Part shown: positions 25,401 through 51,400 of the stretch, piece by piece
Layout of the letters: every line of letters begins with the position of its first letter
Position numbering within the stretch: the first letter of the stretch is position 1
Origin: Flavobacterium branchiarum
GTDB lineage: Bacteria > Bacteroidota > Bacteroidia > Flavobacteriales > Flavobacteriaceae
NCBI RefSeq assembly: GCF_030409845.1
Contig: NZ_JAUFQQ010000005.1
Span: forward strand, 1,240,001 to 1,304,000
DNA length: 64,000 bases
Direction: 5' to 3'
The notes under the pieces: model-generated
What the model was told of the DNA's origin: nothing
Database searches by the model: none
Seen by the model: only the letters and a program-made list of their open reading frames with translations
Position numbers and translations under genes: made by a program

Positions 25401-28400
25401 CTGGCCAAACAATTTCAGGACTTAATGGAGAACAATTTGACCCATTGGTAGAAGTTGGAAGTGTTACTTTTAAAGGAATTTCAATTTGATAGAAATTTTG
25501 AGTAAAGTCATTTCCAAAACGGATAAACCCAACCATTTGCCCATCTCTTAATACTATTTCGTCAGGCAATGATTCAGCGTGTAAAAACATTTTTAATCTG
25601 TTGTATTGACGCATATCAACACTTACGTTTTTAAATACAGCTCTAGAATCTCTTGGTTGCAATCCTCCTCCTGAAACTCGTAGTGCTAATGCTTGCTCGT
25701 TTTGGTTGATGATCGTATTATTATTATACAATTGTTCACGTAATACTCCTGGAGGCGAAACATAATTTACTGGACATCTAGCACCATTTTCTTCTATATT
25801 CACAGCTGCTACATCAAAAGTAGTATTGTCATCATCAACATTAACATCTGTTGGGTCTAATGTATTTGTATATCTTCTCCACTCTCCTCTTACTAAATCT
25901 AATGCTCCAAAACGAACTGTAACATCGCTTTCGAATCCTGTCATAAACATTCTCATGAAACGAATTGATCTAAAATCTGATATGGTACCAATTGTGTTTT
26001 GAGGTTGCGAAACTGGAATTTTAAACTGTATCCATCTGGCATCGGTAACAGATCCGTTTGCCATTGTCACTTGTGTTTCTCTTATATCGGTAACATAATT
26101 TTGTCCTTCTTTCATGCCTGGCTTAACATCTATGCTATACTCATAATAGGCATTAATGGTATTCATCGTGTTATCCCTATTGATATCTTCTACATCTGGA
26201 AGTGTTGTCGAAGCTCTATTGGCATCATTTATATCTACGGCTGAGTTATTTTCTACTCCGTTATAATTTTTATAACGATCTAAAACGCCTCCTGTAGTAT
26301 TTAAATAATAAGTATAGTTATCCGCTGCAGGATCTTTTTCTCCACCATAGTTCGTATATATGGTACCCTCTTTAGAGTCAGGTAAGCCATCTAGACCAAC
26401 ATCTTGATTTGCTCTGTTACCAGCGTTATTATCAAATGCATAAATTAAAGATTGTGATGCTGGAACATCTCCCCATATTGGTTGTGGCTTTGCTAATATT
26501 TGATTTGGACCTAAACCATTTTCATATTGTTTTCTACCATCTTTTAAGATGTCTTCGGAAATTTCTCCTAGGTTAAAATAAACCTTACCTGTATTACTGT
26601 CATTAGTCTTTCCTGCACCCACAAATGGATCTAATACCCAGAATTGGATATACTCGACATTTCCTTGTTCAAAATCTGTTGAACTCAAGGCACGCATTAT
26701 TCCACCAAAATTATCTTTTGGATTTAATGCATAATTTAAATCATTATTATATGGTCCTCTTTCTGATGGATAATAGGTTAAATCTAATGTATTAACCACT
26801 TGTGTTTGCCCTTGTGCTATATCTGTTAATGGATATAACTCATCACTATAAATTCTACGGGTTGTATTTAACGATAAGTCATCATTAGTAATTCCTGAAG
26901 GTTTTGATGCATAAAAAATTGGATCAATTGTATACCATGATAGTTTTGCTCTTTTAAAACCATAACTTAAATCCCCTTTATCTGCACCAAAATCATACGT
27001 ACTTGTTGTACTTTTATCTGGTGTAGAAGACAAACTCCATGCATATGCTGAACGCATATCAATAGTAGATTGCGATCCTTCGAAGTCATCTACATAAATA
27101 GTTGATTCTCCTTCAAAATTATCTGCTTTTGAAGTTCCTGGTTTTAAGAAAGCAATTTCTCCTCTTATCGAAAGATTTGAAGGTACATCGGTATCCATAA
27201 ATGGTAATTTATTTACCAATCGGGTAAAGAAAGGAACTTCTGTAGAGAAATTTGTATTGAAACCATATATCATATTATTTACAGATTCCTGTCCATAACT
27301 TGATTTTTGTGTAAACGGTTTCTCTGACATCTGTAATAAAGTACCTCCAACAGTAAAATTATCAGAAATTTTATGTTGTATATCTACTCCTATAAATCTT
27401 CGGGTTTGTTGTCCGAAAATAGAATTATTCTCTAATGATATTTCAATCGGTGTGTTTGATGCTTGAAGCGAAGGATCTAAGATTTGAACTCTTCCTAATT
27501 GATAATTTACACTGTAATCAATTCCCTCAACTAATACACGTCCTGCTGCAGTAACGACAACTGAACCTTGTGGAACATTAAAAGCTCCAATAGGAATCCC
27601 ATCGCCTCCTGTAGATTTATATTTACCTCTTAATAAGAATTTGTTTTTATCGCTATCTTGTAAAGCTCCCGATTGTGTATTAGAATACATATTACGGAAT
27701 ACATATTTACTCTGGTTTGGGTTATATGTACTTGTATTACGGTAATCTTCGGCTGTACTTTTTGATAATTTTTCAAATAGTCGTTCTCCAAAAGGCTCTT
27801 TGGTCGTAAATATAATTCTACCATTTTGAGCATCTATCGTTAACCCTGGTAAAAAATCAAAAAAACCATCACCTCCCACTTGAGGATCATTATTATAATT
27901 CAATTTATCCAAATCAAATACCTTAAGTAAAGGGGTATCTGTTACTCTCATATCTGGAAGAGGGTTTTCTGGAAATGGATTAGAACTATTTACTGGTGTA
28001 ATATAATTTATTGGAGAAGGATCCGTATACAATATATTGAATCTAAAATCCTCTTGTTTTATTTGATATGCCCCAGGAATTTGATAGATATTTTTCATCA
28101 TCAAGTTCCAAACTGGATTCTTAACATTAGTCAAATTACTTTTCAGCATTTTCAATATCAAACTTTGTGTTATGATTGCTTGATTTGAAGGATTATTTCC
28201 TGTTACTACGGTAGCGTCTACACCATCGTTTCCAAATTCACCTACCTGAAACACTTGGTCTCCCATTGTATACTCGTAAGCAACTGCCAGAACTTCATCA
28301 TTTGCTAATCGTTGTTGCAACGATAGATACCCTAATTGTGCATTAAAAGTATACTCATTAGGATTTAACTTTCTTGCATTTTCTAATTTTGAATAATCTT

Positions 28401-29658
28401 GTCCTTCATTTACTGTAACATTAAACCCTGTACCTGAAGTGACAATTTCACGAATATCTCTATTCAATAAACCTGTTCCTCCAATAATTAATCTCGGATC
28501 ATATTTATTATTACCATTGTCTGATGGTGAACCAATTTGTTTAAGAAAAATTCCTGCTGAAGGGTTTAAAACTACAATTTCATTATCTGGAATTCCAGCT
28601 ATTTGTGCTTCTCCCAAATCCTGTAGCGCAATAATATTTCTTAAATTATTATTGGTTGTACTAACCCTATTTTGTTTGTTTGTTACCCAAACCTCTAATC
28701 GTGTAATTTGAACACGGCTATCAATAACAGGGTATTTTTTTAATGCTGAATCGTACTTATTTCTAAAATATTGAGATAGGAAAAAGTGTCTGTCATTATC
28801 ATAATTCAAGGCATACAGATCAAAATTCTGAACAGTTCCTCCCCCTTCGGCAACGACGCTTTTGGCTTGAGATTTTTGTTCTGAGAAAACACCTGTAATA
28901 GTAGTTTTTCCGAATTGTAATTGAGCTTTTACTCCAAATAAACTTTGTGCTCCCCTAATTAAAGTACTATTAAGAGGCATACTTACGTTACCAACTTCGA
29001 TTTTTTGGATGATATCGTCTTCGGATGGACTGTATTCTAATTTTATTAAATTTTGAAACGCAAATGTTGATTGTGTATCGTAATTAGCATTTACATTTAA
29101 TCGCGTACCTACTTTTCCTTGCAAGCTCATGCTAATACGTTGATCAAAATCAAAAGAAAGATTAGACCTGTTTCTGGGAGAAAAAGACGGATTATCTTGT
29201 TTGGTATAACGAGCACCTAAATCAATTTCGACAGAACCAGTTGGTTTTACGTCGATTGTATTACTCCCGAAAATAGATTCAAAAAGTCCTGACTTTATAT
29301 AATATCTAGGAAGTAAATCTTTTTTGGCATCTTCGGCACCATCTTTTTTACCATCTATAGCGTCAACTTTTTTCTTAAAATAAGCTCTTCGAGATTCTTT
29401 TAAGATTAATCGCTCATACTCTTCCGGTGTTAAAATAATTGGGTAGTTAATCGAAAACCCTTCTACTGAATTGGTATAGATGTAGCGATCTGTTATAGGG
29501 TCATAAGTATAAGCTGAAAGAATGCTTTGCGGATCTTTTATTTGTATTTTACCAACAGAATACCCTGTTTTCGTTGTATCTTGAACCTCCTCTATTACTT
29601 GAGCATTCGATACAATCCCACAAAATAAAACCAGTAAAAAAATACAAATTTTATGCAT
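22441..29658 (-). CDS. sprA: SprA, type IX secretion translocon / gliding motility protein
   Basis: 2405 residues with a signal peptide (MHKICIFLLVLFCGIVSNAQ). SprA forms the very large beta-barrel that carries type IX substrates across the outer membrane. Length and regions match the family: N-terminal LGARYTKQDNPSFSPRNR, RFIGVDIQHKISDNFTVGGT, DVNIDYSVNYQ-like repeats, and a C-terminal barrel end (GFTIRYNFGN) finishing in an aromatic-rich strand. It is 27 bases after ruvA, and this ruvA-sprA-gcvH order is, to my knowledge, common in flavobacteria. It is the likely exit channel for the giant adhesin at 36404-52729. Confidence 0.96.
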   Translation of the reverse strand: MHKICIFLLVLFCGIVSNAQVIEEVQDTTKTGYSVGKIQIKDPQSILSAYTYDPITDRYIYTNSVEGFSINYPIILTPEEYERLILKESRRAYFKKKVDAIDGKKDGAEDAKKDLLPRYYIKSGLFESIFGSNTIDVKPTGSVEIDLGARYTKQDNPSFSPRNRSNLSFDFDQRISMSLQGKVGTRLNVNANYDTQSTFAFQNLIKLEYSPSEDDIIQKIEVGNVSMPLNSTLIRGAQSLFGVKAQLQFGKTTITGVFSEQKSQAKSVVAEGGGTVQNFDLYALNYDNDRHFFLSQYFRNKYDSALKKYPVIDSRVQITRLEVWVTNKQNRVSTTNNNLRNIIALQDLGEAQIAGIPDNEIVVLNPSAGIFLKQIGSPSDNGNNKYDPRLIIGGTGLLNRDIREIVTSGTGFNVTVNEGQDYSKLENARKLNPNEYTFNAQLGYLSLQQRLANDEVLAVAYEYTMGDQVFQVGEFGNDGVDATVVTGNNPSNQAIITQSLILKMLKSNLTNVKNPVWNLMMKNIYQIPGAYQIKQEDFRFNILYTDPSPINYITPVNSSNPFPENPLPDMRVTDTPLLKVFDLDKLNYNNDPQVGGDGFFDFLPGLTIDAQNGRIIFTTKEPFGERLFEKLSKSTAEDYRNTSTYNPNQSKYVFRNMYSNTQSGALQDSDKNKFLLRGKYKSTGGDGIPIGAFNVPQGSVVVTAAGRVLVEGIDYSVNYQLGRVQILDPSLQASNTPIEISLENNSIFGQQTRRFIGVDIQHKISDNFTVGGTLLQMSEKPFTQKSSYGQESVNNMIYGFNTNFSTEVPFFTRLVNKLPFMDTDVPSNLSIRGEIAFLKPGTSKADNFEGESTIYVDDFEGSQSTIDMRSAYAWSLSSTPDKSTTSTYDFGADKGDLSYGFKRAKLSWYTIDPIFYASKPSGITNDDLSLNTTRRIYSDELYPLTDIAQGQTQVVNTLDLTYYPSERGPYNNDLNYALNPKDNFGGIMRALSSTDFEQGNVEYIQFWVLDPFVGAGKTNDSNTGKVYFNLGEISEDILKDGRKQYENGLGPNQILAKPQPIWGDVPASQSLIYAFDNNAGNRANQDVGLDGLPDSKEGTIYTNYGGEKDPAADNYTYYLNTTGGVLDRYKNYNGVENNSAVDINDANRASTTLPDVEDINRDNTMNTINAYYEYSIDVKPGMKEGQNYVTDIRETQVTMANGSVTDARWIQFKIPVSQPQNTIGTISDFRSIRFMRMFMTGFESDVTVRFGALDLVRGEWRRYTNTLDPTDVNVDDDNTTFDVAAVNIEENGARCPVNYVSPPGVLREQLYNNNTIINQNEQALALRVSGGGLQPRDSRAVFKNVSVDMRQYNRLKMFLHAESLPDEIVLRDGQMVGFIRFGNDFTQNFYQIEIPLKVTLPTSTNGSNCSPLSPEIVWPAENDIDLDLSLLTKMKIMAMKIDPNTLPPDGIYYPDDDLINPGGDGDNNMRLGIKGNPNFGLVRNLMVGVKNAELHQNVKGEVWFNELRLAGMDNKGGMAAILNIDTNFADFATISATGRKSTIGFGSLEQGPNERSREDIQQYNIVTNLNLGKLLPPKWGINLPFNYAVGEETITPEYDPFNEDIKLKQLLDITSNSAEKENIRNRAIDYTKRRSINFIGVRKDRAPEQKQHIYDPENFTFSQSYNEVERHDYEIKSYEDLQSSTTVNYAYSFQPKTVEPFKKTKYFKKSDYWKMLSDFNFNYLPSNITFNTNIIRQYNRQEFRQVENVEGLGLDPLYRRNFAFNYQYGFNYNLTKSLKINYTASSNNIVKNYLNADNEPIDSFSIWDSYWDIGTPNQHMQQLILNYEIPLYKIPVLAFLKASYTYTGDYTWQRTSEALSTFEDDQGSYNLGNTIQNANSNTFTAAMNMNTLYKYLGLTKGGAKTAKAKPTVPKPGEKVVNTNQGLEKNSVFQDGLMGVLTSIKNIQVNYTVNSGTVLPGYTPSVGFLGSSRPSLGFIFGSQDDVRYEAAKNGWLTNYQDFNQSFSQVTNKMFKATANIDLLPDLKVDLNFDRTYSANFSEQYDVDASGQYHARSPYNYGMFSISTILIKTAFSTSNEISSAAFDDFRSNRLEIANRLAESHYGSGVPIPRYGDAANPIPVNPTDPNYEKKDIFESNAGYPIGYTKNNQAVLLPSFLAAYSGSDASKSSTGIFRNFPLPNWSIKYNGLMRYRYFKEKFKRFSLQHNYRASYTINQYRSNFKYDQYKGQQDPDSDNFYNATIMSNVNLVEQFNPLIRMDFELKSSLKVLTEIKKDRALSMSFDNNLLTEVKGMEYIIGLGYRIKDVIFSSTLADSPTGIIKSDINIKGDLSFRNNQTMVRYLDYDNNQLAAGQNIWSLKLTADYSFSKNLTAIFYYDHSFSKAVISTLYPLTNIRSGFTIRYNFGN

Positions 29659-33399: not shown

Positions 33400-33445
33400 A
33401 TTAAAAAAACAAAGCCTTTTCTATATTAAGAAAAGGCTTTGTTTG
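33400..33445 (-). terminator. Terminator of the adhesin/PorP/PorE-like cassette
   Basis: The 13-bp arms CAAAGCCTTTTCT and AGAAAAGGCTTTG (33410-33422 and 33429-33441) form a perfect stem. On the minus strand an eight-base T-run follows. It lies 34 bases past the stop of the PorE-like gene. Confidence 0.88.
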
Positions 33446-33478: not shown

Positions 33479-35419
33479 TTATTCCATTGAAACGATAATA
33501 AACTCGCTTCGTCTGTTTAATTGGTGTTCTGCTTCTGTACAAGGAACTCCATCTGAGCAATGGTTCACTAACTGGCTCTCGCCATATCCTTTACCTGTTA
33601 CTCTATTTTGTGCGATACCATTTTTCACTAACCATTGTATAGTCGATTTTGCTCTTCTATCTGATAAAGCTAAATTATATTTGGCTGTTTGTCGGCTATC
33701 TGTATGTGAACGAACATCAATTTTCATCTTTGGATATTGTTTCATCACTGCGAGTATCTTCTCAAGTTCAAAAGCGGCGTCTTTACGAATGAATGATTTA
33801 TCTAGATCAAAATAAATAATTGGAATATCCAGCGTTTTGGCTAGATCTGTACCTACACCAATTGGCTTAATTCGTTTCTCAAGAGGTATTACTAAACTAG
33901 TTTCTCCTGTTTCATTTTTAATTGTAACCAGAAGTTCTTTGGTTTCATAATCTTGTTTACTCGCTCTTACATGATATGTTTTACCACAATCTACATTAAA
34001 TTTATAACTACCGTCTGCTGCTGTTACAACTTCTCCTATAGTTTTAAATTGTTCGTCTAACAATAACACTTTCGCATTGTCCAATATTTTGTTAGTTTCT
34101 AAATCGATAATTGCTCCTTTTAATACTTGTTCACAAAGTAATTTTTTGATTTCAGTAAATCGGTAGATATCATCGTTTCCTATTCCACCTTCTCTATTAG
34201 ACGAGAAAAATCCATTTCTATTTTCGCTATTTATAATAAATGCAAAATCATCTTGTTTACTATTTATTGGCGCACCTAGATTTTGAATAGCTGAGAAGGT
34301 TCCGTCATCATTGATTTTTGAAACAAATACATCTAGTCCTCCCAAACCTGGTCTTCCGTCACTAGCAAAATACAATTCGTTATCTGCTGAAACAAATGGA
34401 AAAGTTTCTCTTCCTTCTGTATTAATTGTTGCTCCTAAATTTTTGGGTTTACCAAAACTTCCATCTGAATTAATGGTTACGCTATACAAATCAGATTGAC
34501 CAAGAGTTCCTGGCATATCTGATGCGAAATACAATAATTTCTCATCATTACTTAGTGCTGGATGCGCAGTACTATATTGATCACTATTAAATGGTAACTC
34601 TCTCAAATTAGTCCATTTTCCATCAACAAAATCAGCTTTATAAAGTTTTAACAGCGTAATCTTTTGTTCATCTCTACCTCTTTTACCATCAAGAAAATTG
34701 TTTCTTGTAAAGTACATTGTTTTTCCATCTTTTGTAAAAACGGGTGTCGATTCATTGAACTTAGAATTGATTTTCTTTTCAAATCGTTCTGGTTTCCCAA
34801 GTGTCCCATCTGATTTTAATTCGGCTGAATAAAGGTTTGTAAATGCTTTATTGGTCCATTTAAATGTACTTCTGACTACTCCCCCGGTATCTCTAGCAGA
34901 TGCAAATACGATTTTATTGTCGTAATAAGCACTTCCGTAATCTGTTTGTGTTGAATTAATTCCAGCATCGGCTATTTCAAAGCGACCTGAATTGGCTTTT
35001 ATTTGTTCGAGATAGTTCTTGTTTTTTTCAAACAATATCCCTCTTTTATCTGTATTCGTTTTTTTATTGAAAGCTTCTAAGATCTTATCTGCTTTAGCAT
35101 AATCCCCTGTCGCTTTTAAAGTTTGCGCATAACGATAGTAATATTCTGGCTCTTGTTCTGCATTCATGGCAAAGAGCTCATCGTACCATTTGGATGCTTT
35201 AATTAGTTCGCCATTAAAGTAATAAGCGTTCCCTAATTTCTGGAACATTTTTTCGTCTTTGTATCCTTTTTCAGCTACTCTTTCATAAGTTGCAATTGCA
35301 TCAATAAATGCATATTGAGCATAGTTTTTTTCTGCTTTCTTCTCTACTCCCGTTTGTGCATTTCCATTTAAAGCAAGCAGTACTAAAAAAACAGTATAAA
35401 TTGTATGTTTAATTTTCAT
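33479..35419 (-). CDS. PorE-like OmpA family protein (TPR, beta-propeller, CRD, OmpA)
   Basis: 646 residues: signal peptide (to GNAQ), TPR-type helices (about 25-135), PD40/WD40-like beta-propeller (about 150-405; blades such as PALSNDEKLLYFASDMPG and FVSADNELYFASDG), a carboxypeptidase-regulatory-like domain (about 425-515) and an OmpA peptidoglycan-binding domain (about 535-646) with NLALSDRRAKSTIQWL. This domain order matches PorE of Porphyromonas gingivalis, a periplasmic type IX secretion protein that links the machine to peptidoglycan. It lies 11 bases after a PorP/SprF gene and in line with the giant adhesin gene, so it probably anchors that system. Confidence 0.88.
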   Translation of the reverse strand: MKIKHTIYTVFLVLLALNGNAQTGVEKKAEKNYAQYAFIDAIATYERVAEKGYKDEKMFQKLGNAYYFNGELIKASKWYDELFAMNAEQEPEYYYRYAQTLKATGDYAKADKILEAFNKKTNTDKRGILFEKNKNYLEQIKANSGRFEIADAGINSTQTDYGSAYYDNKIVFASARDTGGVVRSTFKWTNKAFTNLYSAELKSDGTLGKPERFEKKINSKFNESTPVFTKDGKTMYFTRNNFLDGKRGRDEQKITLLKLYKADFVDGKWTNLRELPFNSDQYSTAHPALSNDEKLLYFASDMPGTLGQSDLYSVTINSDGSFGKPKNLGATINTEGRETFPFVSADNELYFASDGRPGLGGLDVFVSKINDDGTFSAIQNLGAPINSKQDDFAFIINSENRNGFFSSNREGGIGNDDIYRFTEIKKLLCEQVLKGAIIDLETNKILDNAKVLLLDEQFKTIGEVVTAADGSYKFNVDCGKTYHVRASKQDYETKELLVTIKNETGETSLVIPLEKRIKPIGVGTDLAKTLDIPIIYFDLDKSFIRKDAAFELEKILAVMKQYPKMKIDVRSHTDSRQTAKYNLALSDRRAKSTIQWLVKNGIAQNRVTGKGYGESQLVNHCSDGVPCTEAEHQLNRRSEFIIVSME

Positions 35420-35430
35420 CTTTAGGGGAT

Positions 35431-36342
35431 TTAGAAGAATCTTGGTGAGGTTATTCTGTTATAATTATTAAAGAATTCAAATCGTAGGAATATCTCGTGT
35501 GATCCTGAATTATAATTATTCAATCTAGTTGTTTCACGGTCATAGGCATATCCTATATATAATCCATCAGTAACTTGAAATCCTACCATAGCACTCAATG
35601 CAGCACTCCATCTATAGGCTGCTCCTACTACAAATTTATCATTGAACATGAAGTTGGCAGAAAGATCTACTTGTAATGGAGATCCTTCGACCATTTTGGT
35701 TAGGACTGCTGGCTTAAACTTGATGTAAGGATCTAAATCGAATACGTATCCTGCAATTAAATAGTAATTTATTTTTTCTTTAAAAATTGCTACTTCTTTG
35801 TCTTTTTCACTATATCTGTTGGTTTCGATAAAGTTCGGCACTGACAATCCTATATATGCTTTATCTGAATGCCAATATACTCCAGCTCCAACATTAGGCG
35901 TGAATTTACTGTTTAAGTCTTGAAATTGCGGATCTCCTTGATGTTCTGGATTCAATTTATTGATGTCTAAATTGAATAGATTGGCAGTTGCTTTTATTCC
36001 AAATGATAGTTTAAAAGTATCAGAAGTTGGTATTGTATAAGACAAATCTGCCGAAAAAGTATTCTCGTTTGTTGGCCCAATTTTATCATTTACAAGCGAA
36101 ACTCCTAATCCTAAATTACTATTAGTTAGCGGTGTGTTTAGTGAAAAACTACTCGTTTCTGGTGCTCCATCTAGTCCAACCCATTGCGTACGGTAAAGTC
36201 CGAAGATGCTCATTGCTCCTCTTGAACCTGCATATGCTGGATTTATATTGATGGTATTGTACATATATTGTGTGAACTGTGCATCTTGTTGTGCATATCC
36301 CACAGCTGAGAAAAACATAAAAACTAAAACTAATTTTTTCAT
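35431..36342 (-). CDS. PorP/SprF family protein, likely partner of the giant adhesin
   Basis: 303 residues: signal peptide (to VGYAQ), then QDAQFTQYMYNTININPAYAGSRG, the classical PorP/SprF N terminus, and an outer-membrane barrel-like C-terminal region ending in an aromatic strand. SprF in F. johnsoniae is needed for surface delivery of SprB, whose gene lies just upstream of sprF. Here the protein follows the giant type B substrate gene by 61 bases, the same arrangement. It is much more conventional in sequence than the paralogue at 1742-2728. Confidence 0.93.
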   Translation of the reverse strand: MKKLVLVFMFFSAVGYAQQDAQFTQYMYNTININPAYAGSRGAMSIFGLYRTQWVGLDGAPETSSFSLNTPLTNSNLGLGVSLVNDKIGPTNENTFSADLSYTIPTSDTFKLSFGIKATANLFNLDINKLNPEHQGDPQFQDLNSKFTPNVGAGVYWHSDKAYIGLSVPNFIETNRYSEKDKEVAIFKEKINYYLIAGYVFDLDPYIKFKPAVLTKMVEGSPLQVDLSANFMFNDKFVVGAAYRWSAALSAMVGFQVTDGLYIGYAYDRETTRLNNYNSGSHEIFLRFEFFNNYNRITSPRFF

Positions 36343-36403: not shown

Positions 36404-39400
36404 CTATTTATTGATGTATAAATATCCTGCTTTTTGATGAGCATTAGATTGATTATCCTTGTATTTCAGAATATAATAATACGTTCCAACTGGCAATCCA
36501 ACTGATTGTTGAACTGTTGTACGTCCTTCTGAGAATCCTTTGAAAGCTCTATCGGTATTATTATATCCATCACGTTCAAAGACTAATACTCCCCAACGGT
36601 TGTATATCTCTACAGTATTATCTGGATAACATTCTAAACCTTGAATATAGAATCGGTCATTTTGAGAATCTCCGTTTGGCGATATTGCATTGAATACTTT
36701 AATTACACATCCTTCTACTGGAGAAACTGTTGGATTATCATCTACTTCGCTTAGATTATCTGATTTATCCTCAACTATAATTCCATGTGCACTTGTTCCA
36801 AATACTGTTGCTTGGTTCACAATTTTACCTGCATTAATATCTGATTGTTTAATAACGTAAGTACCTATGAAAGAATGCTCGTCTGTTTCATTTACTCCTA
36901 ATGATATTGGCATTCCTAACATAATAAGTCCTGGAAGTTGATCATCAATAATAACATTGAAAAGAGGTGTATTTCCTGTATTTGTAATTTTAAATTTATA
37001 CGTTATCGTTTCTCCTTCATTCGCATAACCACTTTTGTTTTCATCGTTAAACACTGCCGTTTTCACAACTGCAATAGATGGTACTTCTACAAAGATTGTA
37101 ACCTTAGCCGTAATACAACTTAATCTATTTATGGCATCACAAATTTGATACGTAAGTTCATAAGTTCCACCTGCTGTATTTGGTGCTACATCAATAGTTC
37201 CATCTACATTTAACGTAATTCCTGGTATTTTTGTTAGGTCTTTTAAAACAACAACCGATGGGTCAGTTATTTTAACACCATTCAACATATCATTATCTAA
37301 TACATTGATTACCTCTAATGATCCATTAATACCATCAGCAAAAACTACATCATCGTCATTTGCTTCGATTACTGCTGCCCCTACAACAACTATTGAAGTT
37401 ACAGTGCTACAATTTGATGGATTCGTTACTTCACATATTCTGTATTCAACATTGTAATTACCCGCTGGTGTGTTTGGAGCAACTGTTACTGTTCCGTCAG
37501 GATTCAATGTCAATCCTGTTGGTACTTTCACTAATGTTAAAATTATATCTCCTGTTTTTGTTCCAATTACAACAGTAGTTCCATTTAACGTATCGTTAGA
37601 TGTTAATGATCGTGTAATACCTCCTGTATTTCCATTAATAGATGGCGTAGTTTCTGTTACTGCATCAATGATTGGTTTACCTACTACTACTATTGAAACA
37701 ACTTTATCACAGTTTGTTGGATTAGTTACTTCACATATTTCGTATTCTACATTGTAGTTACCCGCTGGGGTATTTGGTGCAACAGTTACTGTTCCGTTAG
37801 GATTTAATGTCAATCCTGTTGGTACGTTTAATCCAGTTAATTTTACCTCTCCTGGGTTGGCTCCTATTACAACTTTATCACCATTTAACGTATCGTTAGA
37901 TGTTAATGGGTCTGTAGTACCTCCTGTATTTCCATTAATAGATGGAGTCGTTTCTATTACAGCTTCTATTTTTGGTTTAGTAACAACTACTGTAACTTTT
38001 GCTGAACTACAATTTAATACATTCAACTTCTCACATATGCTATACTCAACTTCATAATTAGCTGCTGGCGTTCCCGCTGCAACACTAATTGTTCCGTCTG
38101 CATTTAAGGTAATTCCTGTTGGATATGTACCTATTTTACTCAAAATAACTTCTGTTGGATCTACTTTGGTTCCGTTTAGTGTATCATTATCTAAAACTGA
38201 AACTGTTGTTTTCCCTCCGTCTTTTCCATTGATCTCCTCTGTGGTGTCCGTATTGGCAACAATAGGAGCTGCTATTACTTTTACTGTAACTTTTGTTGAA
38301 CTACAATTTAATACATTCAACTTCTCACATATGCTATACTCAACTTCATAATTAGCTGCTGGCGTTCCCGCTGCAACACTAATTGTTCCGTCTGTATTTA
38401 AGGTAATTCCTGTTGGATATGTACCTATTTTACTCAAAATAACTTCTGTTGGATCTACTTTGGTTCCGTTTAGTGTATCATTATCTAAAACTGAAACTGT
38501 TGTTTTCCCTCCGTCTTTTCCATTGATCTCCTCTGTGGTGTCCGTATTGGCAACAATAGGAGCTGCTATTACTTTTACTGTAACTTTTGTTGAACTACAA
38601 TTTAATACATTCAACTTCTCACATATGCTATACTCAACTTCATAATTAGCTGCTGGCGTTCCCGCTGCAACACTAATTGTTCCGTCTGCATTTAAGGTAA
38701 TTCCTGTTGGATATGTACCTATTTTACTCAAAATAACTTCTGTTGGATCTACTTTGGTTCCGTTTAGTGTATCATTATCTAAAACTGAAACTGTTGTTTT
38801 CCCTCCGTCTTTTCCATTGATCTCCTCTGTGGTGTCCGTATTGGCAACAATAGGAGCTGCTATTACTTTTACTGTAACTTTTGTTGAACTACAATTTAAT
38901 ACATTCAACTTCTCACATATGCTATACTCAACTTCATAATTAGCTGCTGGCGTTCCCGCTGCAACACTAATTGTTCCGTCTGTATTTAAGGTAATTCCTG
39001 TTGGATATGTACCTATTTTACTCAAAATAACTTCTGTTGGATCTACTTTGGTTCCGTTTAGTGTATCATTATCTAAAACTGAAACTGTTGTTTTTCCTCC
39101 GTCTTTTCCATTGATCTCCTCTGTGGTGTCCGTATTGGCAACAATAGGAGCTGCTATTACTTTTACTGTAACTTTTGTTGAACTACAATTTAATACATTC
39201 AACTTCTCACATATGCTATACTCAACTTCATAATTAGCTGCTGGCGTTCCCGCTGCAACACTAATTGTTCCGTCTGCATTTAAGGTAATTCCTGTTGGAT
39301 ATGTACCTATTTTACTCAAAATAACTTCTGTTGGATCTACTTTGGTTCCGTTTAGTGTATCATTATCTAAAACTGAAACTGTTGTTTTTCCTCCGTCTTT

Positions 39401-42400
39401 TCCATTGATCTCCTCTGTGGTGTCCGTATTGGCAACAATAGGAGCTGCTATTACTTTTACTGTAACTTTTGTTGAACTACAATTTAATACATTCAACTTC
39501 TCACATATGCTATACTCAACTTCATAATTAGCTGCTGGCGTTCCCGCTGCAACACTAATTGTTCCGTCTGCATTTAAGGTAATTCCTGTTGGATATGTAC
39601 CTATTTTACTCAAAATAACTTCTGTTGGATCTACTTTGGTTCCGTTTAGTGTATCATTATCTAAAACTGAAACTGTTGTTTTTCCTCCGTCTTTTCCATT
39701 GATCTCCTCTGTGGTGTCCGTATTGGCAACAATAGGAGCTGCTATTACTTTTACTGTAACTTTTGTTGAACTACAATTTAATACATTCAACTTCTCACAT
39801 ATGCTATACTCAACTTCATAATTAGCTGCTGGCGTTCCCGCTGCAACACTAATTGTTCCGTCTGTATTTAAGGTAATTCCTGTTGGATATGTACCTATTT
39901 TACTCAAAATAACTTCTGTTGGATCTACTTTGGTTCCGTTTAGTGTATCATTATCTAAAACTGAAACTGTTGTTTTCCCTCCGTCTTTTCCATTGATCTC
40001 CTCTGTGGTGTCCGTATTGGCAACAATAGGAGCTGCTATTACTTTTACTGTAACTTTTGTTGAACTACAATTTAATACATTCAACTTCTCACATATGCTA
40101 TACTCAACTTCATAATTAGCTGCTGGCGTTCCCGCTGCAACACTAATTGTTCCGTCTGCATTTAAGGTAATTCCTGTTGGATATGTACCTATTTTACTCA
40201 AAATAACTTCTGTTGGATCTACTTTGGTTCCGTTTAGTGTATCATTATCTAAAACTGAAACTGTTGTTTTCCCTCCGTCTTTTCCATTGATCTCCTCTGT
40301 GGTGTCCGTATTGGCAACAATAGGAGCTGCTATTACTTTTACTGTAACTTTTGTTGAACTACAATTTAATACATTCAACTTCTCACATATGCTATACTCA
40401 ACTTCATAATTAGCTGCTGGCGTTCCCGCTGCAACACTAATTGTTCCGTCTGTATTTAAGGTAATTCCTGTTGGATATGTACCTATTTTACTCAAAATAA
40501 CTTCTGTTGGATCTACTTTGGTTCCGTTTAGTGTATCATTATCTAAAACTGAAACTGTTGTTTTTCCTCCGTCTTTTCCATTGATCTCCTCTGTGGTGTC
40601 CGTATTGGCAACAATAGGAGCTGCTATTACTTTTACTGTAACTTTTGTTGAACTACAATTTAATACATTCAACTTCTCACATATGCTATACTCAACTTCA
40701 TAATTAGCTGCTGGCGTTCCCGCTGCAACACTAATTGTTCCGTCTGCATTTAAGGTAATTCCTGTTGGATATGTACCTATTTTACTCAAAATAACTTCTG
40801 TTGGATCTACTTTGGTTCCGTTTAGTGTATCATTATCTAAAACTGAAACTGTTGTTTTTCCTCCGTCTTTTCCATTGATCTCCTCTGTGGTGTCCGTATT
40901 GGCAACAATAGGAGCTGCTATTACTTTTACTGTAACTTTTGTTGAACTACAATTTAATACATTCAACTTCTCACATATGCTATACTCAACTTCATAATTA
41001 GCTGCTGGCGTTCCCGCTGCAACACTAATTGTTCCGTCTGCATTTAAGGTAATTCCTGTTGGATATGTACCTATTTTACTCAAAATAACTTCTGTTGGAT
41101 CTACTTTGGTTCCGTTTAGTGTATCATTATCTAAAACTGAAACTGTTGTTTTTCCTCCGTCTTTTCCATTGATCTCCTCTGTGGTGTCCGTATTGGCAAC
41201 AATAGGAGCTGCTATTACTTTTACTGTAACTTTTGTTGAACTACAATTTAATACATTCAACTTCTCACATATGCTATACTCAACTTCATAATTAGCTGCT
41301 GGCGTTCCCGCTGCAACACTAATTGTTCCGTCTGCATTTAAGGTAATTCCTGTTGGATATGTACCTATTTTACTCAAAATAACTTCTGTTGGATCTACTT
41401 TGGTTCCGTTTAGTGTATCATTATCTAAAACTGAAACTGTTGTTTTTCCTCCGTCTTTTCCATTGATCTCCTCTGTGGTGTCCGTATTGGCAACAATAGG
41501 AGCTGCTATTACTTTTACTGTAACTTTTGTTGAACTACAATTTAATACATTCAACTTCTCACATATGCTATACTCAACTTCATAATTAGCTGCTGGCGTT
41601 CCCGCTGCAACACTAATTGTTCCGTCTGTATTTAAGGTAATTCCTGTTGGATATGTACCTATTTTACTCAAAATAACTTCTGTTGGATCTACTTTGGTTC
41701 CGTTTAGTGTATCATTATCTAAAACTGAAACTGTTGTTTTTCCTCCGTCTTTTCCATTGATCTCCTCTGTGGTGTCCGTATTGGCAACAATAGGAGCTGC
41801 TATTACTTTTACTGTAACTTTTGTTGAACTACAATTTAATACATTCAACTTCTCACATATGCTATACTCAACTTCATAATTAGCTGCTGGCGTTCCCGCT
41901 GCAACACTAATTGTTCCGTCTGCATTTAAGGTAATTCCTGTTGGATATGTACCTATTTTACTCAAAATAACTTCTGTTGGATCTACTTTGGTTCCGTTTA
42001 GTGTATCATTATCTAAAACTGAAACTGTTGTTTTTCCTCCGTCTTTTCCATTGATCTCCTCTGTGGTGTCCGTATTGGCAACAATAGGAGCTGCTATTAC
42101 TTTTACTGTAACTTTTGTTGAACTACAATTTAATACATTCAACTTCTCACATATGCTATACTCAACTTCATAATTAGCTGCTGGCGTTCCCGCTGCAACA
42201 CTAATTGTTCCGTCTGCATTTAAGGTAATTCCTGTTGGATATGTACCTATTTTACTCAAAATAACTTCTGTTGGATCTACTTTGGTTCCGTTTAGTGTAT
42301 CATTATCTAAAACTGAAACTGTTGTTTTCCCTCCGTCTTTTCCATTGATCTCCTCTGTGGTGTCCGTATTGGCAACAATAGGAGCTGCTATTACTTTTAC

Positions 42401-45400
42401 TGTAACTTTTGTTGAACTACAATTTAATACATTCAACTTCTCACATATGCTATACTCAACTTCATAATTAGCTGCTGGCGTTCCCGCTGCAACACTAATT
42501 GTTCCGTCTGCATTTAAGATAATTCCTGTTGGATATGTACCTATTTTACTCAAAATAACTTCTGTTGGATCTACTTTGGTTCCGTTTAGTGTATCATTAT
42601 CTAAAACTGAAACTGTTGTTTTTCCTCCGTCTTTTCCATTGATCTCCTCTGTGGTGTCCGTATTGGCAACAATAGGAGCTGCTATTACTTTTACTGTAAC
42701 TTTTGTTGAACTACAATTTAATACATTCAACTTCTCACATATGCTATACTCAACTTCATAATTAGCTGCTGGCGTTCCCGCTGCAACACTAATTGTTCCG
42801 TCTGCATTTAAGATAATTCCTGTTGGATATGTACCTATTTTACTCAAAATAACTTCTGTTGGATCTACTTTGGTTCCGTTTAGTGTATCATTATCTAAAA
42901 CTGAAACTGTAGTGCTTCCTCCGTCTTTTCCATTGATCTCCTCTGTGGTGTCCGTATTGGCAACAATAGGAGCTGCTATTACTTTTACTGTAACTTTTGT
43001 TGAACTACAATTTAATACATTCAACTTCTCACATATGCTATACTCAACTTCATAATTAGCTGCTGGCGTTCCCGCTGCAACACTAATTGTTCCGTCTGCA
43101 TTTAAGGTAATTCCTGTTGGATATGTACCTATTTTACTCAAAATAACTTCTGTTGGATCTACTTTGGTTCCGTTTAGTGTATCATTATCTAAAACTGAAA
43201 CTGTTGTTTTTCCTCCGTCTTTTCCATTGATCTCCTCTGTGGTGTCCGTATTGGCAACAATAGGAGCTGCTATTACTTTTACTGTAACTTTTGTTGAACT
43301 ACAATTTAATACATTCAACTTCTCACATATGCTATACTCAACTTCATAATTAGCTGCTGGCGTTCCCGCTGCAACACTAATTGTTCCGTCTGCATTTAAG
43401 ATAATTCCTGTTGGATATGTACCTATTTTACTCAAAATAACTTCTGTTGGATCTACTTTGGTTCCGTTTAGTGTATCATTATCTAAAACTGAAACTGTTG
43501 TTTTTCCTCCGTCTTTTCCATTGATCTCCTCTGTGGTGTCCGTATTGGCAACAATAGGAGCTGCTATTACTTTTACTGTAACTTTTGTTGAACTACAATT
43601 TAATACATTCAACTTCTCACATATGCTATACTCAACTTCATAATTAGCTGCTGGCGTTCCCGCTGCAACACTAATTGTTCCGTCTGCATTTAAGGTAATT
43701 CCTGTTGGATATGTACCTATTTTACTCAAAATAACTTCTGTTGGATCTACTTTGGTTCCGTTTAGTGTATCATTATCTAAAACTGAAACTGTTGTTTTCC
43801 CTCCGTCTTTTCCATTGATCTCCTCTGTGGTGTCCGTATTGGCAACAATAGGAGCTGCTATTACTTTTACTGTAACTTTTGTTGAACTACAATTTAATAC
43901 ATTCAACTTCTCACATATGCTATACTCAACTTCATAATTAGCTGCTGGCGTTCCCGCTGCAACACTAATTGTTCCGTCTGTATTTAAGGTAATTCCTGTT
44001 GGATATGTACCTATTTTACTCAAAATAACTTCTGTTGGATCTACTTTGGTTCCGTTTAGTGTATCATTATCTAAAACTGAAACTGTTGTTTTCCCTCCGT
44101 CTTTTCCATTGATCTCCTCTGTGGTGTCCGTATTGGCAACAATAGGAGCTGCTATTACTTTTACTGTAACTTTTGTTGAACTACAATTTAATACATTCAA
44201 CTTCTCACATATGCTATACTCAACTTCATAATTAGCTGCTGGCGTTCCCGCTGCAACACTAATTGTTCCGTCTGTATTTAAGGTAATTCCTGTTGGATAT
44301 GTACCTATTTTACTCAAAATAACTTCTGTTGGATCTACTTTGGTTCCGTTTAGTGTATCATTATCTAAAACTGAAACTGTTGTTTTTCCTCCGTCTTTTC
44401 CATTGATCTCCTCTGTGGTGTCCGTATTGGCAACAATAGGAGCTGCTATTACTTTTACTGTAACTTTTGTTGAACTACAATTTAATACATTCAACTTCTC
44501 ACATATGCTATACTCAACTTCATAATTAGCTGCTGGCGTTCCCGCTGCAACACTAATTGTTCCGTCTGCATTTAAGGTAATTCCTGTTGGATATGTACCT
44601 ATTTTACTCAAAATAACTTCTGTTGGATCTACTTTGGTTCCGTTTAGTGTATCATTATCTAAAACTGAAACTGTTGTTTTTCCTCCGTCTTTTCCATTGA
44701 TCTCCTCTGTGGTGTCCGTATTGGCAACAATAGGAGCTGCTATTACTTTTACTGTAACTTTTGTTGAACTACAATTTAATACATTCAACTTCTCACATAT
44801 GCTATACTCAACTTCATAATTAGCTGCTGGCGTTCCCGCTGCAACACTAATTGTTCCGTCTGCATTTAAGATAATTCCTGTTGGATATGTACCTATTTTA
44901 CTCAAAATAACTTCTGTTGGATCTACTTTGGTTCCGTTTAGTGTATCATTATCTAAAACTGAAACTGTTGTTTTTCCTCCGTCTTTTCCATTGATCTCCT
45001 CTGTGGTGTCCGTATTGGCAACAATAGGAGCTGCTATTACTTTTACTGTAACTTTTGTTGAACTACAATTTAATACATTCAACTTCTCACATATGCTATA
45101 CTCAACTTCATAATTAGCTGCTGGCGTTCCCGCTGCAACACTAATTGTTCCGTCTGCATTTAAGGTAATTCCTGTTGGATATGTACCTATTTTACTCAAA
45201 ATAACTTCTGTTGGATCTACTTTGGTTCCGTTTAGTGTATCATTATCTAAAACTGAAACTGTTGTTTTCCCTCCGTCTTTTCCATTGATCTCCTCTGTGG
45301 TGTCCGTATTGGCAACAATAGGAGCTGCTATTACTTTTACTGTAACTTTTGTTGAACTACAATTTAATACATTCAACTTCTCACATATGCTATACTCAAC

Positions 45401-48400
45401 TTCATAATTAGCTGCTGGCGTTCCCGCTGCAACACTAATTGTTCCGTCTGCATTTAAGATAATTCCTGTTGGATATGTACCTATTTTACTCAAAATAACT
45501 TCTGTTGGATCTACTTTGGTTCCGTTTAGTGTATCATTATCTAAAACTGAAACTGTAGTGCTTCCTCCGTCTTTTCCATTGATCTCCTCTGTGGTGTCCG
45601 TATTGGCAACAATAGGAGCTGCTATTACTTTTACTGTAACTTTTGTTGAACTACAATTTAATACATTCAACTTCTCACATATGCTATACTCAACTTCATA
45701 ATTAGCTGCTGGCGTTCCCGCTGCAACACTAATTGTTCCGTCTGTATTTAAGGTAATTCCTGTTGGATATGTACCTATTTTACTCAAAATAACTTCTGTT
45801 GGATCTACTTTGGTTCCGTTTAGTGTATCATTATCTAAAACTGAAACTGTTGTTTTCCCTCCGTCTTTTCCATTGATCTCCTCTGTGGTGTCCGTATTGG
45901 CAACAATAGGAGCTGCTATTACTTTTACTGTAACTTTTGTTGAACTACAATTTAATACATTCAACTTCTCACATATGCTATACTCAACTTCATAATTAGC
46001 TGCTGGCGTTCCCGCTGCAACACTAATTGTTCCGTCTGTATTTAAGGTAATTCCTGTTGGATATGTACCTATTTTACTCAAAATAACTTCTGTTGGATCT
46101 ACTTTGGTTCCGTTTAGTGTATCATTATCTAAAACTGAAACTGTTGTTTTCCCTCCGTCTTTTCCATTGATCTCCTCTGTGGTGTCCGTATTGGCAACAA
46201 TAGGAGCTGCTATTACTTTTACTGTAACTTTTGTTGAACTACAATTTAATACATTCAACTTCTCACATATGCTATACTCAACTTCATAATTAGCTGCTGG
46301 CGTTCCCGCTGCAACACTAATTGTTCCGTCTGTATTTAAGGTAATTCCTGTTGGATATGTACCTATTTTACTCAAAATAACTTCTGTTGGATCTACTTTG
46401 GTTCCGTTTAGTGTATCATTATCTAAAACTGAAACTGTTGTTTTTCCTCCGTCTTTTCCATTGATCTCCTCTGTGGTGTCCGTATTGGCAACAATAGGAG
46501 CTGCTATTACTTTTACTGTAACTTTTGTTGAACTACAATTTAATACATTCAACTTCTCACATATGCTATACTCAACTTCATAATTAGCTGCTGGCGTTCC
46601 CGCTGCAACACTAATTGTTCCGTCTGCATTTAAGGTAATTCCTGTTGGATATGTACCTATTTTACTCAAAATAACTTCTGTTGGATCTACTTTGGTTCCG
46701 TTTAGTGTATCATTATCTAAAACTGAAACTGTTGTTTTTCCTCCGTCTTTTCCATTGATCTCCTCTGTGGTGTCCGTATTGGCAACAATAGGAGCTGCTA
46801 TTACTTTTACTGTAACTTTTGTTGAACTACAATTTAATACATTCAACTTCTCACATATGCTATACTCAACTTCATAATTAGCTGCTGGCGTTCCCGCTGC
46901 AACACTAATTGTTCCGTCTGCATTTAAGGTAATTCCTGTTGGATATGTACCTATTTTACTCAAAATAACTTCTGTTGGATCTACTTTGGTTCCGTTTAGT
47001 GTATCATTATCTAAAACTGAAACTGTTGTTTTTCCTCCGTCTTTTCCATTGATCTCCTCTGTGGTGTCCGTATTGGCAACAATAGGAGCTGCTATTACTT
47101 TTACTGTAACTTTTGTTGAACTACAATTTAATACATTCAACTTCTCACATATGCTATACTCAACTTCATAATTAGCTGCTGGCGTTCCCGCTGCAACACT
47201 AATTGTTCCGTCTGCATTTAAGATAATTCCTGTTGGATATGTACCTATTTTACTCAAAATAACTTCTGTTGGATCTACTTTGGTTCCGTTTAGTGTATCA
47301 TTATCTAAAACTGAAACTGTAGTGCTTCCTCCGTCTTTTCCATTGATCTCCTCTGTGGTGTCCGTATTGGCAACAATAGGAGCTGCTATTACTTTTACTG
47401 TAACTTTTGTTGAACTACAATTTAATACATTCAACTTCTCACATATGCTATACTCAACTTCATAATTAGCTGCTGGCGTTCCCGCTGCAACACTAATTGT
47501 TCCGTCTGCATTTAAGGTAATTCCTGTTGGATATGTACCTATTTTACTCAAAATAACTTCTGTTGGATCTACTTTGGTTCCGTTTAGTGTATCATTATCT
47601 AAAACTGAAACTGTTGTTTTCCCTCCGTCTTTTCCATTGATCGGTGTTGTTGTATCATCATTGGCACAAATAACATTATTCATAACAATTTCAGATGATG
47701 CCGGTGAAGTACATCCTGCAGCATTTCTTTCTGTAAATGTATAATTTCCTGATACAGCTGTTACCAATCCTGTGCTTGAAATATTAGCAACAGATATCGG
47801 TGGTGTAAATGTATAAGTACTTGTACTAACAAATCCTGAAATTTGGAAAGTTCCTGTAGCTGTATCACATGTTGGATGTGTTATAGTTCCTGCTTGTGGC
47901 TGAGCTGGTGTTTCTAATTTAGCCGCATTACTAAATGATGCTGATGCTGGTGATATACAACTCGCTTTTGTAGATGTAACTGTATAACCAGTTCCAATAA
48001 CCATATTACTTATTAATCCTAATGCATCAACACTTGGTCCTGCTGGATCAAAAGTATATGTATTACCTAAAACGTAATTTTTAATTTTGCTACTTGCTGC
48101 CGCTGAACACGTAGCTGTAGTAGTTGTAATTTCTGGCTGAGCTGGTGTTTCTAATTTAGCCGCATTACTAAATGATGCTGATGCTGGTGATATACAACTC
48201 GCTTTTGTAGATGTAACTGTATAACCAGTTCCAATAACCATATTACTTATTAATCCTAATGCATCAACACTTGGTCCTGCTGGATCAAAAGTATATGTAT
48301 TACCTAAAACGTAATTTTTAATTTTGCTACTTGCTGCCGCTGAACACGTAGCTGTAGTAGTTGTAATTTCTGGCTGAGCTGGTGTTTCTAATTTAGCCAC

Positions 48401-51400
48401 ATTACTAAATGATGCTGATGCTGGTGATATACAACTCGCTTTTGTAGATGTAACTGTATAACCAGTTCCAATAACCATATTACTTATTAATCCTAATGCA
48501 TCAACACTTGGTCCTGCTGGATCAAAAGTATATGTATTACCTAAAACGTAATTTTTAATTTTGCTACTTGCTGCCGCTGAACACGTAGCTGTAGTAGTTG
48601 TAATTTCTGGCTGAGCTGGTGTTTCTAATTTAGCTGCATTACTAAATGATGCTGATGCTGGTGATATACAATTCGCTTTTGTAGATGTAACTGTATAACC
48701 AGTTCCAATAACCATATTACTTATTAATCCTAATGCATCAACACTTGGTCCACCTGGATTAAAACTATATGCATTACCTGAAACGTAATTCTTAATTTTA
48801 CTACTTGCTACAGCTGAACACGTAGCTGGTGTAGTGGTGATTTCTGGTTGAGCTGGTGTTTCTAATTTAGCCGCATTACTAAATGATGCTGATGCTAGTG
48901 ATATACAATTCGCTTTTGTAGATGTAACTGTATAACCAGTTCCAATAACCATATTACTTATTAATCCTAATGCATCAACACTTGGTCCACCTGGATTAAA
49001 ACTATATGCATTACCTGAAACGTAATTGTTAATTTTACTACTTGCTGCAGCTGAACACGTAGCTGGTGTAGTGGTAATTTCTGGCTGAGCTGGTGCTACT
49101 GGTTTATCATTTATAACAACTTCTACTGCTGGTGAAGTACAACCTGCTGCATTAGTTACTGTAAAATTATATGTAGCTGAAGTCAATCCTTCGATAAGCT
49201 TAGTGCTTCCGCTTCCATTAATATTTCCAGGCTGAATTGTCCAACTACCTGATGGTAATCCACCTAAAGTAAAGCTTCCTGTAGCTAAAGCACAAGTTGG
49301 TTGAGTAGGTGTATTAGCTGTTGGTTTTGCAGGTTTCGCGTTCATCTTAACATCTCCTGTTATAATAGCTGCTGAACAAGGAGTTGTATGACCAACTGTC
49401 GTTATAGTATAAGTACCATCTGCAGTTGGGGTTCCTGAAATAGTAACTGTTTTTTCTTTTTCATCTACATCTGATTTTAATCCAGCTGGTAAGTTGGTCA
49501 CTGTAGCATTTGTAGCACTGCCACTAAAAGTATAAATAGTACTCTGAATGTCTGATCCTGTACATACGTTAGCAATTTCCGCACCAGTAGTAAGCTTAAT
49601 TTCAGAAGGTATGCTCACAACAGCTGCAACTGATCTTCTTGATGATGAAGTACAATCCCCTAATCTAGCACCTACATAATAAGTTGTAGTTACTGATAAA
49701 TCTTCTATAGTAAAAGTTGGCCCAGTTGCCAATAAAGTGTCTCCTGTTGAATCTGCGAACCACTGAATTTCTGCTCCCGTTGATGCAGTAGCAGTTAGCA
49801 CTACCTCACCTGGTCCACATACAGCCCCTTGCCTCGTAGAAGTAATTGTTGGTGTAGTATTTACTGTTGCCTTCACTAATGTCCTAGCTGAAGTACAACC
49901 ATTATTAGTTACTTCAACATAATAATTTTTATTTACAGTTAGACTTGGTGTAGTAAATTCTGGTCCTGTTCCTGATAATGTTACTCCTGTATCGCTATCA
50001 TACCAATTGATTGTACCCGCAGAAGCCGTAGCCTTCAAAATCACTGTTCCTGCATCGCATCGTGAACCTTGAGTCGTACTAGTGATCGTGGGTTTAGCAT
50101 TAATAACAAAATTAGTCGCTGTTCTACAAGTTGAATTACCACAAGCCGCATAATACGTTTTAGTTCCTGGAGGACTAGTTGCTGTTAATCCAGATTTATT
50201 ATTTGTAAATGGATTAAATTCAGCCCCACTAGCTATAGGATCACCTCCCGTATCAGTTAGATACCAATTTATATCTCTCACGTTACATGTTGACGATGTA
50301 ACTTTTAACAAAGCTCCATTTCTATCTCCTTGACAAACTGAAGCCCCAGTAGTTTTTGGTGCTCCTTCAGCTGCATTAATAACTATATTACCAGTTGCAA
50401 GTGAAACACAACCATTGGCATTTGTTGTAGTAACAACATAGGTATTTGGTGCCAATCCTGAAAAGACACCAGTAGTAGTTGTTTCTACTGTTGCTGGATT
50501 TGCGCCTTTTATTGTATAAGAAATATTCGCCCCATTAGCAGGTGAAGTTACGGTTATTGTTCCTGTTGACATTGAGCAACTTAATTGCGTAACCTCAGTT
50601 TTTGGTGTTTCTGGTAAGGCGTAGATTATTATATCATCTACTTTAGTGCCTGCACCGTTAAAATTTGAACCTGGAACATTACCTTGACCACCTTGATAGG
50701 TTTTATTTGTAGTGTTCTCTACAAAAGCATCTATAAATGCTGTGATTTTTCTGTTAGGTGTACTCGAACGTGTTGGATCCAAATACAATGCCTGAGCACT
50801 AGAACTATATTCACCCGCTGCAATGGTTCCAGTTAATTTACCAACTAAGGTTATTGTAACCACTCCATTTTGTGCAATATTAAAATCGCCTAACAGAGTT
50901 CTATTGTTTGTACTCGTATTTGTCAGAGCGCTTGAAGATAACGATGCATCAACTAGAGACTTCACTATAGCTGAATCGAATCCTATATTTAAAGGAAAAA
51001 GAAAATCTAAAGCAACCCCAGCTGCATTTCCAACACCTGTATTTGTTATTTGAATTTCATAAGAAACCTTTTCATTAACTGAACTACAAGCAGACGCTGT
51101 AGGTAAAGCTTTTACTGTAGTAGTAAGAATAGGAAAACAGCTTGAATTAACTTGTAAATATGGAGGTAGTTTATCATTAGTAAAAGCAGCTACGATACCT
51201 GGAGTTCCATCCTCAGCACCGTGCTTAACACCATCACCGTTTGTTAAACCAGCTGGTCCTCCTTTTGCGGTAGCTTTAACACTAGCTAGTGCAATGTTGT
51301 GTCTGATGATTCCACCACCACCACCACCACCCGGTCCGTGCTCATTTTTAGTATCATTAGCAGTATTTCCTCCATCTCCTCCATTAGCATTAATTGTTAT

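Follow-up and report, generated by a model that had tools for sequence, protein, structure and literature searches.

A giant type IX (type B) surface protein of Flavobacterium branchiarum with a young array of 33 nearly identical, predicted Ig-like units and a probably static anchor

We analysed a giant adhesin-like open reading frame (ORF) in a 64,000-nucleotide stretch of the Flavobacterium branchiarum genome (contig NZ_JAUFQQ010000005.1, positions 1,240,001 to 1,304,000), hereafter called the window, whose numbering is used throughout. The ORF probably (at a probability of about 0.7) encodes a type IX (type B) secreted surface protein with an N-terminal head, a length-variable stalk of immunoglobulin (Ig)/cadherin-like domains lengthened by tandem amplification, and static anchoring to the cell wall. 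Synonymous divergence indicates that this lineage extended the stalk by amplifying one 98-residue domain in tandem, after its split from the nearest relatives found. An original prediction, made from the letters of the sequence, had placed 33 copies of a 98-residue repeat, nearly identical even at silent sites, between 37970 and 47670 of a giant secreted adhesin. Its coordinates and copy count hold, by Tandem Repeats Finder (TRF) and by a count in codon register, and so does its statement on silent sites. The parts of the ORF are as follows.

36404..52729, minus strand: giant adhesin-like ORF, 5,441 residues
50870..52729, minus strand: N-terminal export-signal region and head, residues 1-620, presumed distal tip (AgmC_N, 113 bits, below the cut-off of 275)
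49859..50095, minus strand: Ig_7 (PF19081), profile match, best of three stretches between head and arrays
47897..49095, minus strand: first array, five units of 237 base pairs (bp; 79 residues), found by TRF, pairwise identity 0.92-1.00
37967..47668, minus strand: main array, 33 units of 294 bp (98 residues), units 2-32 nearly identical (TRF and codon-register count)
37082..37966, minus strand: degenerate units of the same 98-residue family as the main array, by sequence comparison
36767..37081, minus strand: DUF7507 domain (69.1 bits, cut-off 27)
36413..36703, minus strand: type B C-terminal sorting domain, CHU_C / TIGR04131 (PF13585, 89.2 bits, cut-off 27; TIGR04131, 36.7 bits, cut-off 35)

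A hydrophobic N terminus is visible by eye in the ORF translation, and the class of the protein suggests that it is an adhesin. The Pfam names attached to the repeat (DUF4634, NHL, NPCBM_assoc) come from weak or chance-type matches and were not used to assign a function. Several features go beyond the original prediction, namely the five-unit 237-bp array, the degenerate 98-residue copies downstream of the main array, the type IX type B class with its own carrier lacking track-coupling cysteines and with a PorE-like gene, and the amplification of other domains by homologues in the same part of the protein.

TRF reported the main array in the window at 37988-47642 with a period of 294, 32.8 copies, 99% matches and 0% indels. 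In codon register, the 33 units at 37967-47668 on the minus strand belong to a single ORF, with a spacing of 98 residues in 32 of 32 intervals. Periodicity by chance is excluded, since the array matches itself at lag 294 with an identity of 0.991, compared to 0.295-0.300 in the remaining window (at most 0.295 in 200 shuffles). Units 2-32 have only 0-4 mismatches each to the consensus, with six variable positions of 294 and a mean identity of 99.4%, and form six haplotypes interspersed along the array. The terminal units deviate more (13 sites in unit 1, 16 sites in unit 33), mostly on the sides where the array meets its flanks. At sites 47 and 159, each of the four possible combinations is present, pointing to exchange between units or recurrent mutation. 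Further, an identical stretch of 1,651 bp recurs at a shift of five units. A five-unit higher-order repeat was considered as well and is kept as a hint only, the test being weak after correction.

To date the copies, the window was compared with its nearest syntenic relatives found, the genomes G337 (locus L175) and G352 (L176), in which the adhesin's carrier protein (see below) shares 96 and 94% protein identity with that of the window and the OmpA and malic-enzyme genes follow in the same order. The assembled copy number at this locus is 33 in the window, 3 in G337 and 1 in G352; this is a contrast between species, and no second strain of F. branchiarum was returned by the searches. Synonymous divergence (dS) from the window amounts to 0.49-0.65 (G337) and 0.42 (G352) for the units, 0.52 and 0.60 for the 228-residue C-terminal flank, 0.78 and 0.97 for the carrier, and 0.38 and 0.45 for malic enzyme. 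Within the window array, the mean synonymous difference (pS) is 0.009 at a mean identity of 0.994. As the units are about as diverged between species as their flank and far less diverged within the array, the copies are very young; from these ratios, their common ancestor would be about fifty times younger than the species split. The recent expansion or homogenisation proposed originally is thus supported by the low pS, by the four combinations at sites 47 and 159 and by the copy numbers of 33 against 3 and 1 as assembled. Since close relatives appear to have one or three copies, the gene can probably alter the reach of its protein from the cell. Both expansion and contraction of the array are possible; the internal linker of the window units resembles that of the G337 units.

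The original prediction had named strongly diverged repeats in homologues as a finding that would speak against it. Such divergence was found in part: the window units differ from those of the nearest relatives by 21-25% of DNA, and the arrays of some relatives have matches of only 67-76%. This shows lineage-specific turnover and does not refute recent homogenisation in F. branchiarum.

Next to the ORF lie a carrier gene and a PorE-like gene, and the type IX translocon gene is found in the same window.

35431..36342, minus strand: SprF/PorP-family carrier, 303 amino acids, no cysteine, ending in SPRFF (TIGR03519, 315 bits, cut-off 90.55; PF11751, 324.3 bits, cut-off 22.3)
33479..35419, minus strand: PorE-like OmpA-family gene, 646 amino acids (OmpA PF00691, 57.3 bits, cut-off 27.2)
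33407..33444, minus strand: terminator-like hairpin with a T run after the three-gene cluster, 16-pair stem (2 such sites in 33000-36600, 1.7 expected by chance)
22441..29658, minus strand: SprA, type IX outer-membrane translocon (TIGR04189, 2790 bits, cut-off 200)

The genes are closely spaced, with 61 bp from the adhesin to the carrier and 11 bp from the carrier to the PorE-like gene. Going by gene order near sprA, the locus may be the counterpart of Fjoh_1645. The closest named record of the carrier, among the best 80 of at least 577 and with same-genome records possibly excluded, is from F. shii (93% protein identity). With a sorting domain above both cut-offs and an adjoining PorP/SprF-family gene, the ORF is classed from its sequence as a type IX (type B) substrate. 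Such a neighbour is usual, not universal, being reported for 9 of 12 type B substrates in F. johnsoniae (PMC12618676). In the gliding machinery, the Cys-X-Cys motif in the tail of SprF is described as necessary for a disulfide bond to the track protein GldK and for sustained movement on the gliding track (PMC12635249). For non-mobile type B proteins, wall anchoring through PorE-like proteins has been proposed in a study of the PorE-PorP-PG1035 complex (PMC9143113). The C-terminal domain (CTD) of Fjoh_3952, which is 68% identical to that of Fjoh_1645, is reported as static, and its operon includes a PorE-like gene, unlike those of dynamic substrates (PMC12618676). In the window, the carrier has no Cys-X-Cys in its tail and is followed by a PorE-like OmpA gene; static anchoring rather than gliding is therefore probable.

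Whether tail and neighbour go together was examined in all 88 PF11751 loci returned for eight genomes, the locus of the window included, using its OmpA protein as query and about 1.5 kb of flank per locus, so that OmpA genes lying farther away or strongly diverged in sequence would escape. Carriers ending in PR(F/Y)F had an OmpA/PorE-like gene downstream on the same strand in 55/55 cases. In contrast, an OmpA gene was downstream of 0/18 carriers with Cys-X-Cys in the last 25 residues and of 0/15 with other ends. Counting only carriers distinct by length and tail, the comparison is 44/44 for PR(F/Y)F against 0/17 for Cys-X-Cys (Fisher p 1.9e-15, which overstates the significance because paralogues and species are related). 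Among close carrier relatives in named records (the best 80 of at least 577, several from the same genome), 80/80 end in PRFF and 79/80 have the OmpA gene. The PR(F/Y)F tail may dock PorE. A second PorP/SprF-family carrier is located at 1742-2728 of the window on the minus strand, about 20 kb from sprA; it belongs to the Cys-X-Cys class (tail YDCDCPAIN), with no OmpA match within the flank examined. Going by gene order, it may match the orphan gliding carrier Fjoh_1677. At seven other loci (L132, L200, L201, L223, L227, L254, L256), the PorP/SprF domain is part of open frames of 1,034-1,650 residues, whose visible tails, truncated where the analysed stretch ends, mostly abound in alanine, lysine and aspartate or glutamate.

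The fold of the repeat was assessed by predicting the structure of two consecutive units, as the original prediction had suggested. The resulting model is confident and Ig-like, with a predicted local distance difference test score (pLDDT) of 95.4, a predicted template modelling score of 0.80 and the same strand order in each unit. The unit is thus predicted to be an Ig/cadherin-like domain and the repeats to fold independently. Among solved structures, SraP repeats, the Long stalk domain of Rib and cadherins come closest in fold, mostly at middling Z scores; a search of three units by sequence against PDB gave one weak match (E 0.16), which was rejected. Cysteines occupy unit positions 76 and 84 in 33/33 units. 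Over 128 cells of the unit comparison, the pair was C/C in 124, lost at both positions in 2, C/G in 1 and C/gap in 1. Of the disulfide per unit that had originally been proposed, the joint conservation of the two cysteines and a predicted hairpin speak in favour, the bond itself being a prediction. Given the confident two-unit model, it is plausible that copy number sets filament length. An Ig domain is about 3.5-4.5 nm long, at which the array would contribute about 115-150 nm. On the scale of SprB, which is about 200 nm long (PMC12635249) and has 6,497 residues (PMC9870892), i.e., at 0.031 nm per residue, the contribution would be about 100 nm.

Homologues were compared to see which domains are amplified in this part of the protein (23 proteins, P0001 and 22 of 55 matches). 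The head is 60-67% identical in fourteen proteins, P0002-P0015, and 70% identical in two partial proteins; CHU_C (PF13585) is listed for 13 of the fourteen, the exception, P0015, being marked partial. These proteins are presumed orthologues, synteny having been checked for the retrieved loci only. Across the head-sharing homologues, families of 73-, 79-/80-, 87- to 90-, 96- and 98- to 100-residue units are amplified. P0009 of F. plurextorum contains about 45 identical 73-residue units at residues 1815-5094, plus about 12 of a 100-residue unit; 79-residue units are amplified in P0003 and P0015, 96-residue units in P0011-P0013 and 98-residue units in P0005 and P0014. P0011 also shows a nine-unit block duplication (624 identical residues at lag 864), clearer than the five-unit hint in the window.

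At the locus level, 20 regions from 19 genomes, picked for complete assemblies and strong matches, were compared. At syntenic loci of single- or two-contig genomes, with QueG on one side and carrier and OmpA on the other, G057 has 8.1 copies of a 219-bp unit; the units measure 225 and 282 bp in G042 and 240 and 597 bp in G361. The head of G057 (L171) is that of the window (67%). A head fixed at the locus was considered and dropped, as G057 alone keeps the window's head among the four syntenic loci in which the ORF start is visible together with queG, the carrier side or both. An alternative head, beginning near HYIAPAPWQY after the signal peptide, was seen at the syntenic loci L170, L174 and L180 and at another carrier-linked locus, L181. 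The head fold could not be used either: AlphaFold2 on residues 22-700 had only 3 sequences and reached a pLDDT of 38.7. Another carrier-linked adhesin of G057, a two-contig genome, contains seventeen 306-bp units with zero differences (L172, 9274-14482), a cleaner case of recent amplification than that of the window. A selection termed A1 comprised the window and 63 relatives, taken from 118 stretches kept of 298 tblastn matches (at least 170 query residues, plus strand, no stop, at most 3 per locus).

Considering these data together, the following mechanism is probable. Unequal crossing-over or slippage between identical 294-bp units would add or remove whole units, sometimes in blocks, and selection would keep reading frame and fold, such that the gene acts as a length dial. 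The chain would exit via SprA, pass to the SprF-like carrier encoded next to it and be kept at the outer membrane; the PorE-like OmpA protein of the neighbouring gene would tie this carrier to the cell wall. On its own, the array would hold the head about 100-150 nm away, as a static adhesive stalk and not as a moving gliding adhesin. For a broader reading we see even odds: the locus would be a domain-amplification platform whose anchor module, made up of the sorting domain, the carrier and the PorE-like protein, stays fixed, while each lineage rebuilds the stalk from a different amplified Ig-like domain and sometimes swaps the head. It would belong to a static class of type IX adhesins, the carriers of which have a PR(F/Y)F tail docking a PorE-like wall anchor, as opposed to the Cys-X-Cys tail hooking gliding carriers to the track.

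Several observations weigh against a static, length-variable stalk amplified in this lineage. G337 and G352 are draft assemblies in which arrays may have collapsed, and the single unit of G352 has the start of a first and the end of a last unit, as a collapsed array would. However, in both G337 and G352 the contig extends past the units into dissimilar sequence at either end, and the three units of G337 show 6-8% DNA difference among themselves. The evidence for block duplication in the window is weak (longest run, p 0.046; lag 5, p 0.021 alone and 0.29 over 15 lags), and the arrays in L163, L165, L166 and L182 are not homogeneous, with matches of 67-76%. On the anchoring side, the OmpA neighbour reaches 354.2 bits against the PorE model NF052230, below the curated cut-off of 600, and is therefore called PorE-like only; the CHU_0125 model also matches it below its cut-off. 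Three syntenic loci, G042 (L170), G319 (L174) and G361 (L180), carry another head and share with the window's head the signal-peptide region at most (for G319, compared without the carrier end). Finally, a sequence search with the head brought up no solved structure (E up to 1), and no fold or ligand was recognised. The count of 33 itself comes from a single assembly of one strain, and the uniform array could in part be an assembly artefact with a true unit number other than 33. A contig end lies within 10 kb on the adhesin side of 42/80 carrier loci compared to 7/80 on the other side (best 80 of at least 577; 5 on both sides, discordant 37 vs. 2, some loci from the same genome), an excess that widespread arrays of this kind would produce if assembly often fails on them. 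In addition, three contigs of this genome each have a carrier agreeing in length, tail and score, hinting at redundant contig ends. Nevertheless, we think an artefact unlikely: the array is inside a 2.34-Mb contig of a 5.0-Mb, 5-contig genome, the ORF is open throughout, and units of the six haplotypes are mixed along it. As another genome and another protein also have arrays, with 17 to about 45 identical units, the phenomenon itself is real. These three carriers are at L122, L123 and L124 (contigs C3, C4 and C5 of G000), two of them less than 10 kb from a contig end.

Function could also be explained differently. A selectively neutral slippage product, tolerated because the domains fold independently, would have a stalk length without function. 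This idea fits the relatives in which 1 or 3 units are assembled or in which amplification affects other domains, and the protein sequence of the units evolves faster than that of the C-terminal flank (nonsynonymous divergence, dN, between species 0.17-0.23 vs. 0.06-0.07). We nonetheless consider neutrality rather doubtful, as reading frame and both cysteines are retained in 33/33 units, dN/dS of the units between species is about 0.3-0.5, and long homogeneous arrays recur in head-sharing homologues and at syntenic loci of several species. Alternatively, the protein might be a mobile gliding adhesin like SprB, with the SprF-like partner moving it on the gliding track. It shares with SprB the type B sorting domain, the SprF-family carrier and the giant repetitive architecture. 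This appears improbable, however, because the carrier has no cysteine, whereas the tail motif is reported to be required for sustained track movement (PMC12635249), and the two carrier classes did not overlap in the 88 loci of 8 genomes.

The static-stalk reading is best placed among known systems by comparison with Periscope proteins (SasG, Rib, Sgo_0707), which, like the ORF of the window, are single chains with a stalk of highly identical tandem domains. As described in PMC8201768 and PMC9704523, their high DNA identity is thought to permit recombination altering repeat number, and their functional head is away from the anchor. The Long stalk domain of Rib is among the best fold matches of the window unit. 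The anchors differ: Periscope proteins use a sortase or an autotransporter barrel, the window ORF type IX secretion with an SprF-like carrier and probably PorE. The main texts of PMC8201768 and PMC9704523 contain no word starting with Bacteroid or Flavobacter. Working like a Periscope protein appears to be the best explanation of the ORF, but we do not claim membership, as strain variation is the defining property. SprB of F. johnsoniae is likewise a giant repetitive type B adhesin with an SprF-family carrier (PMC9870892, PMC12635249), but moves on the gliding track via the Cys-X-Cys tail of SprF (PMC12635249), and sprB-sprF is described without a porE-like neighbour (PMC9143113), in contrast to the OmpA/PorE-like gene 11 bp downstream of the carrier here. 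Also comparable are Fjoh_1645/Fjoh_1646 and Fjoh_3952/Fjoh_3951/Fjoh_3950, in which a type B substrate is beside an SprF-like carrier; the locus of Fjoh_3952, itself static, also has a PorE-like gene (PMC12618676). That study of F. johnsoniae treats sorting domains and carriers, whereas our focus is stalk copy number.

Two further elements of the window were noted. A small ORF at 3964-4605 on the plus strand contains 5.3 copies of a 66-bp tandem repeat (4055-4411), with an apolipoprotein-like helical pattern below the Pfam cut-off. A Flavo-1 RNA (RF01705) is found just past queG at 54247-54338 on the plus strand (68.6 bits, cut-off 42).

Both kinds of structure concerned, length-variable homogeneous stalks and giant type B adhesins, are already known, and the association of a PorE-like neighbour with static anchoring has been proposed before (PMC9143113, PMC12618676). 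Within the reach of our literature searches, three points are new: that assembled copy number differs so strongly between close species at a single type IX locus, that one amplified domain is exchanged for another while its place stays the same, and that carriers follow a rule linking their tail to their neighbouring gene. In searches mostly outside subscription journals, we found no paper joining type IX secretion with Periscope proteins or with copy number of tandem-repeat adhesins, and none on tandem repeats in Flavobacterium proteins with a gliding motility-associated C-terminal domain. No paper among the matches listed pairs the PRFF tail with SprF; stalk repeats may be treated in further papers on SprB.

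Nearly identical, length-variable stalks are on record for surface proteins anchored by sortase, for autotransporters and for some others. The same stalk logic would be present here in the Bacteroidota, in a protein secreted by the type IX system whose assembled copy numbers are more than tenfold apart between close species. If the proposed carrier classes are true, the carrier tail and the neighbouring gene form a sequence rule by which moving giant adhesins would be told from standing ones; whether such an adhesin walks or stands would then be decided by a single C-terminal tail code.

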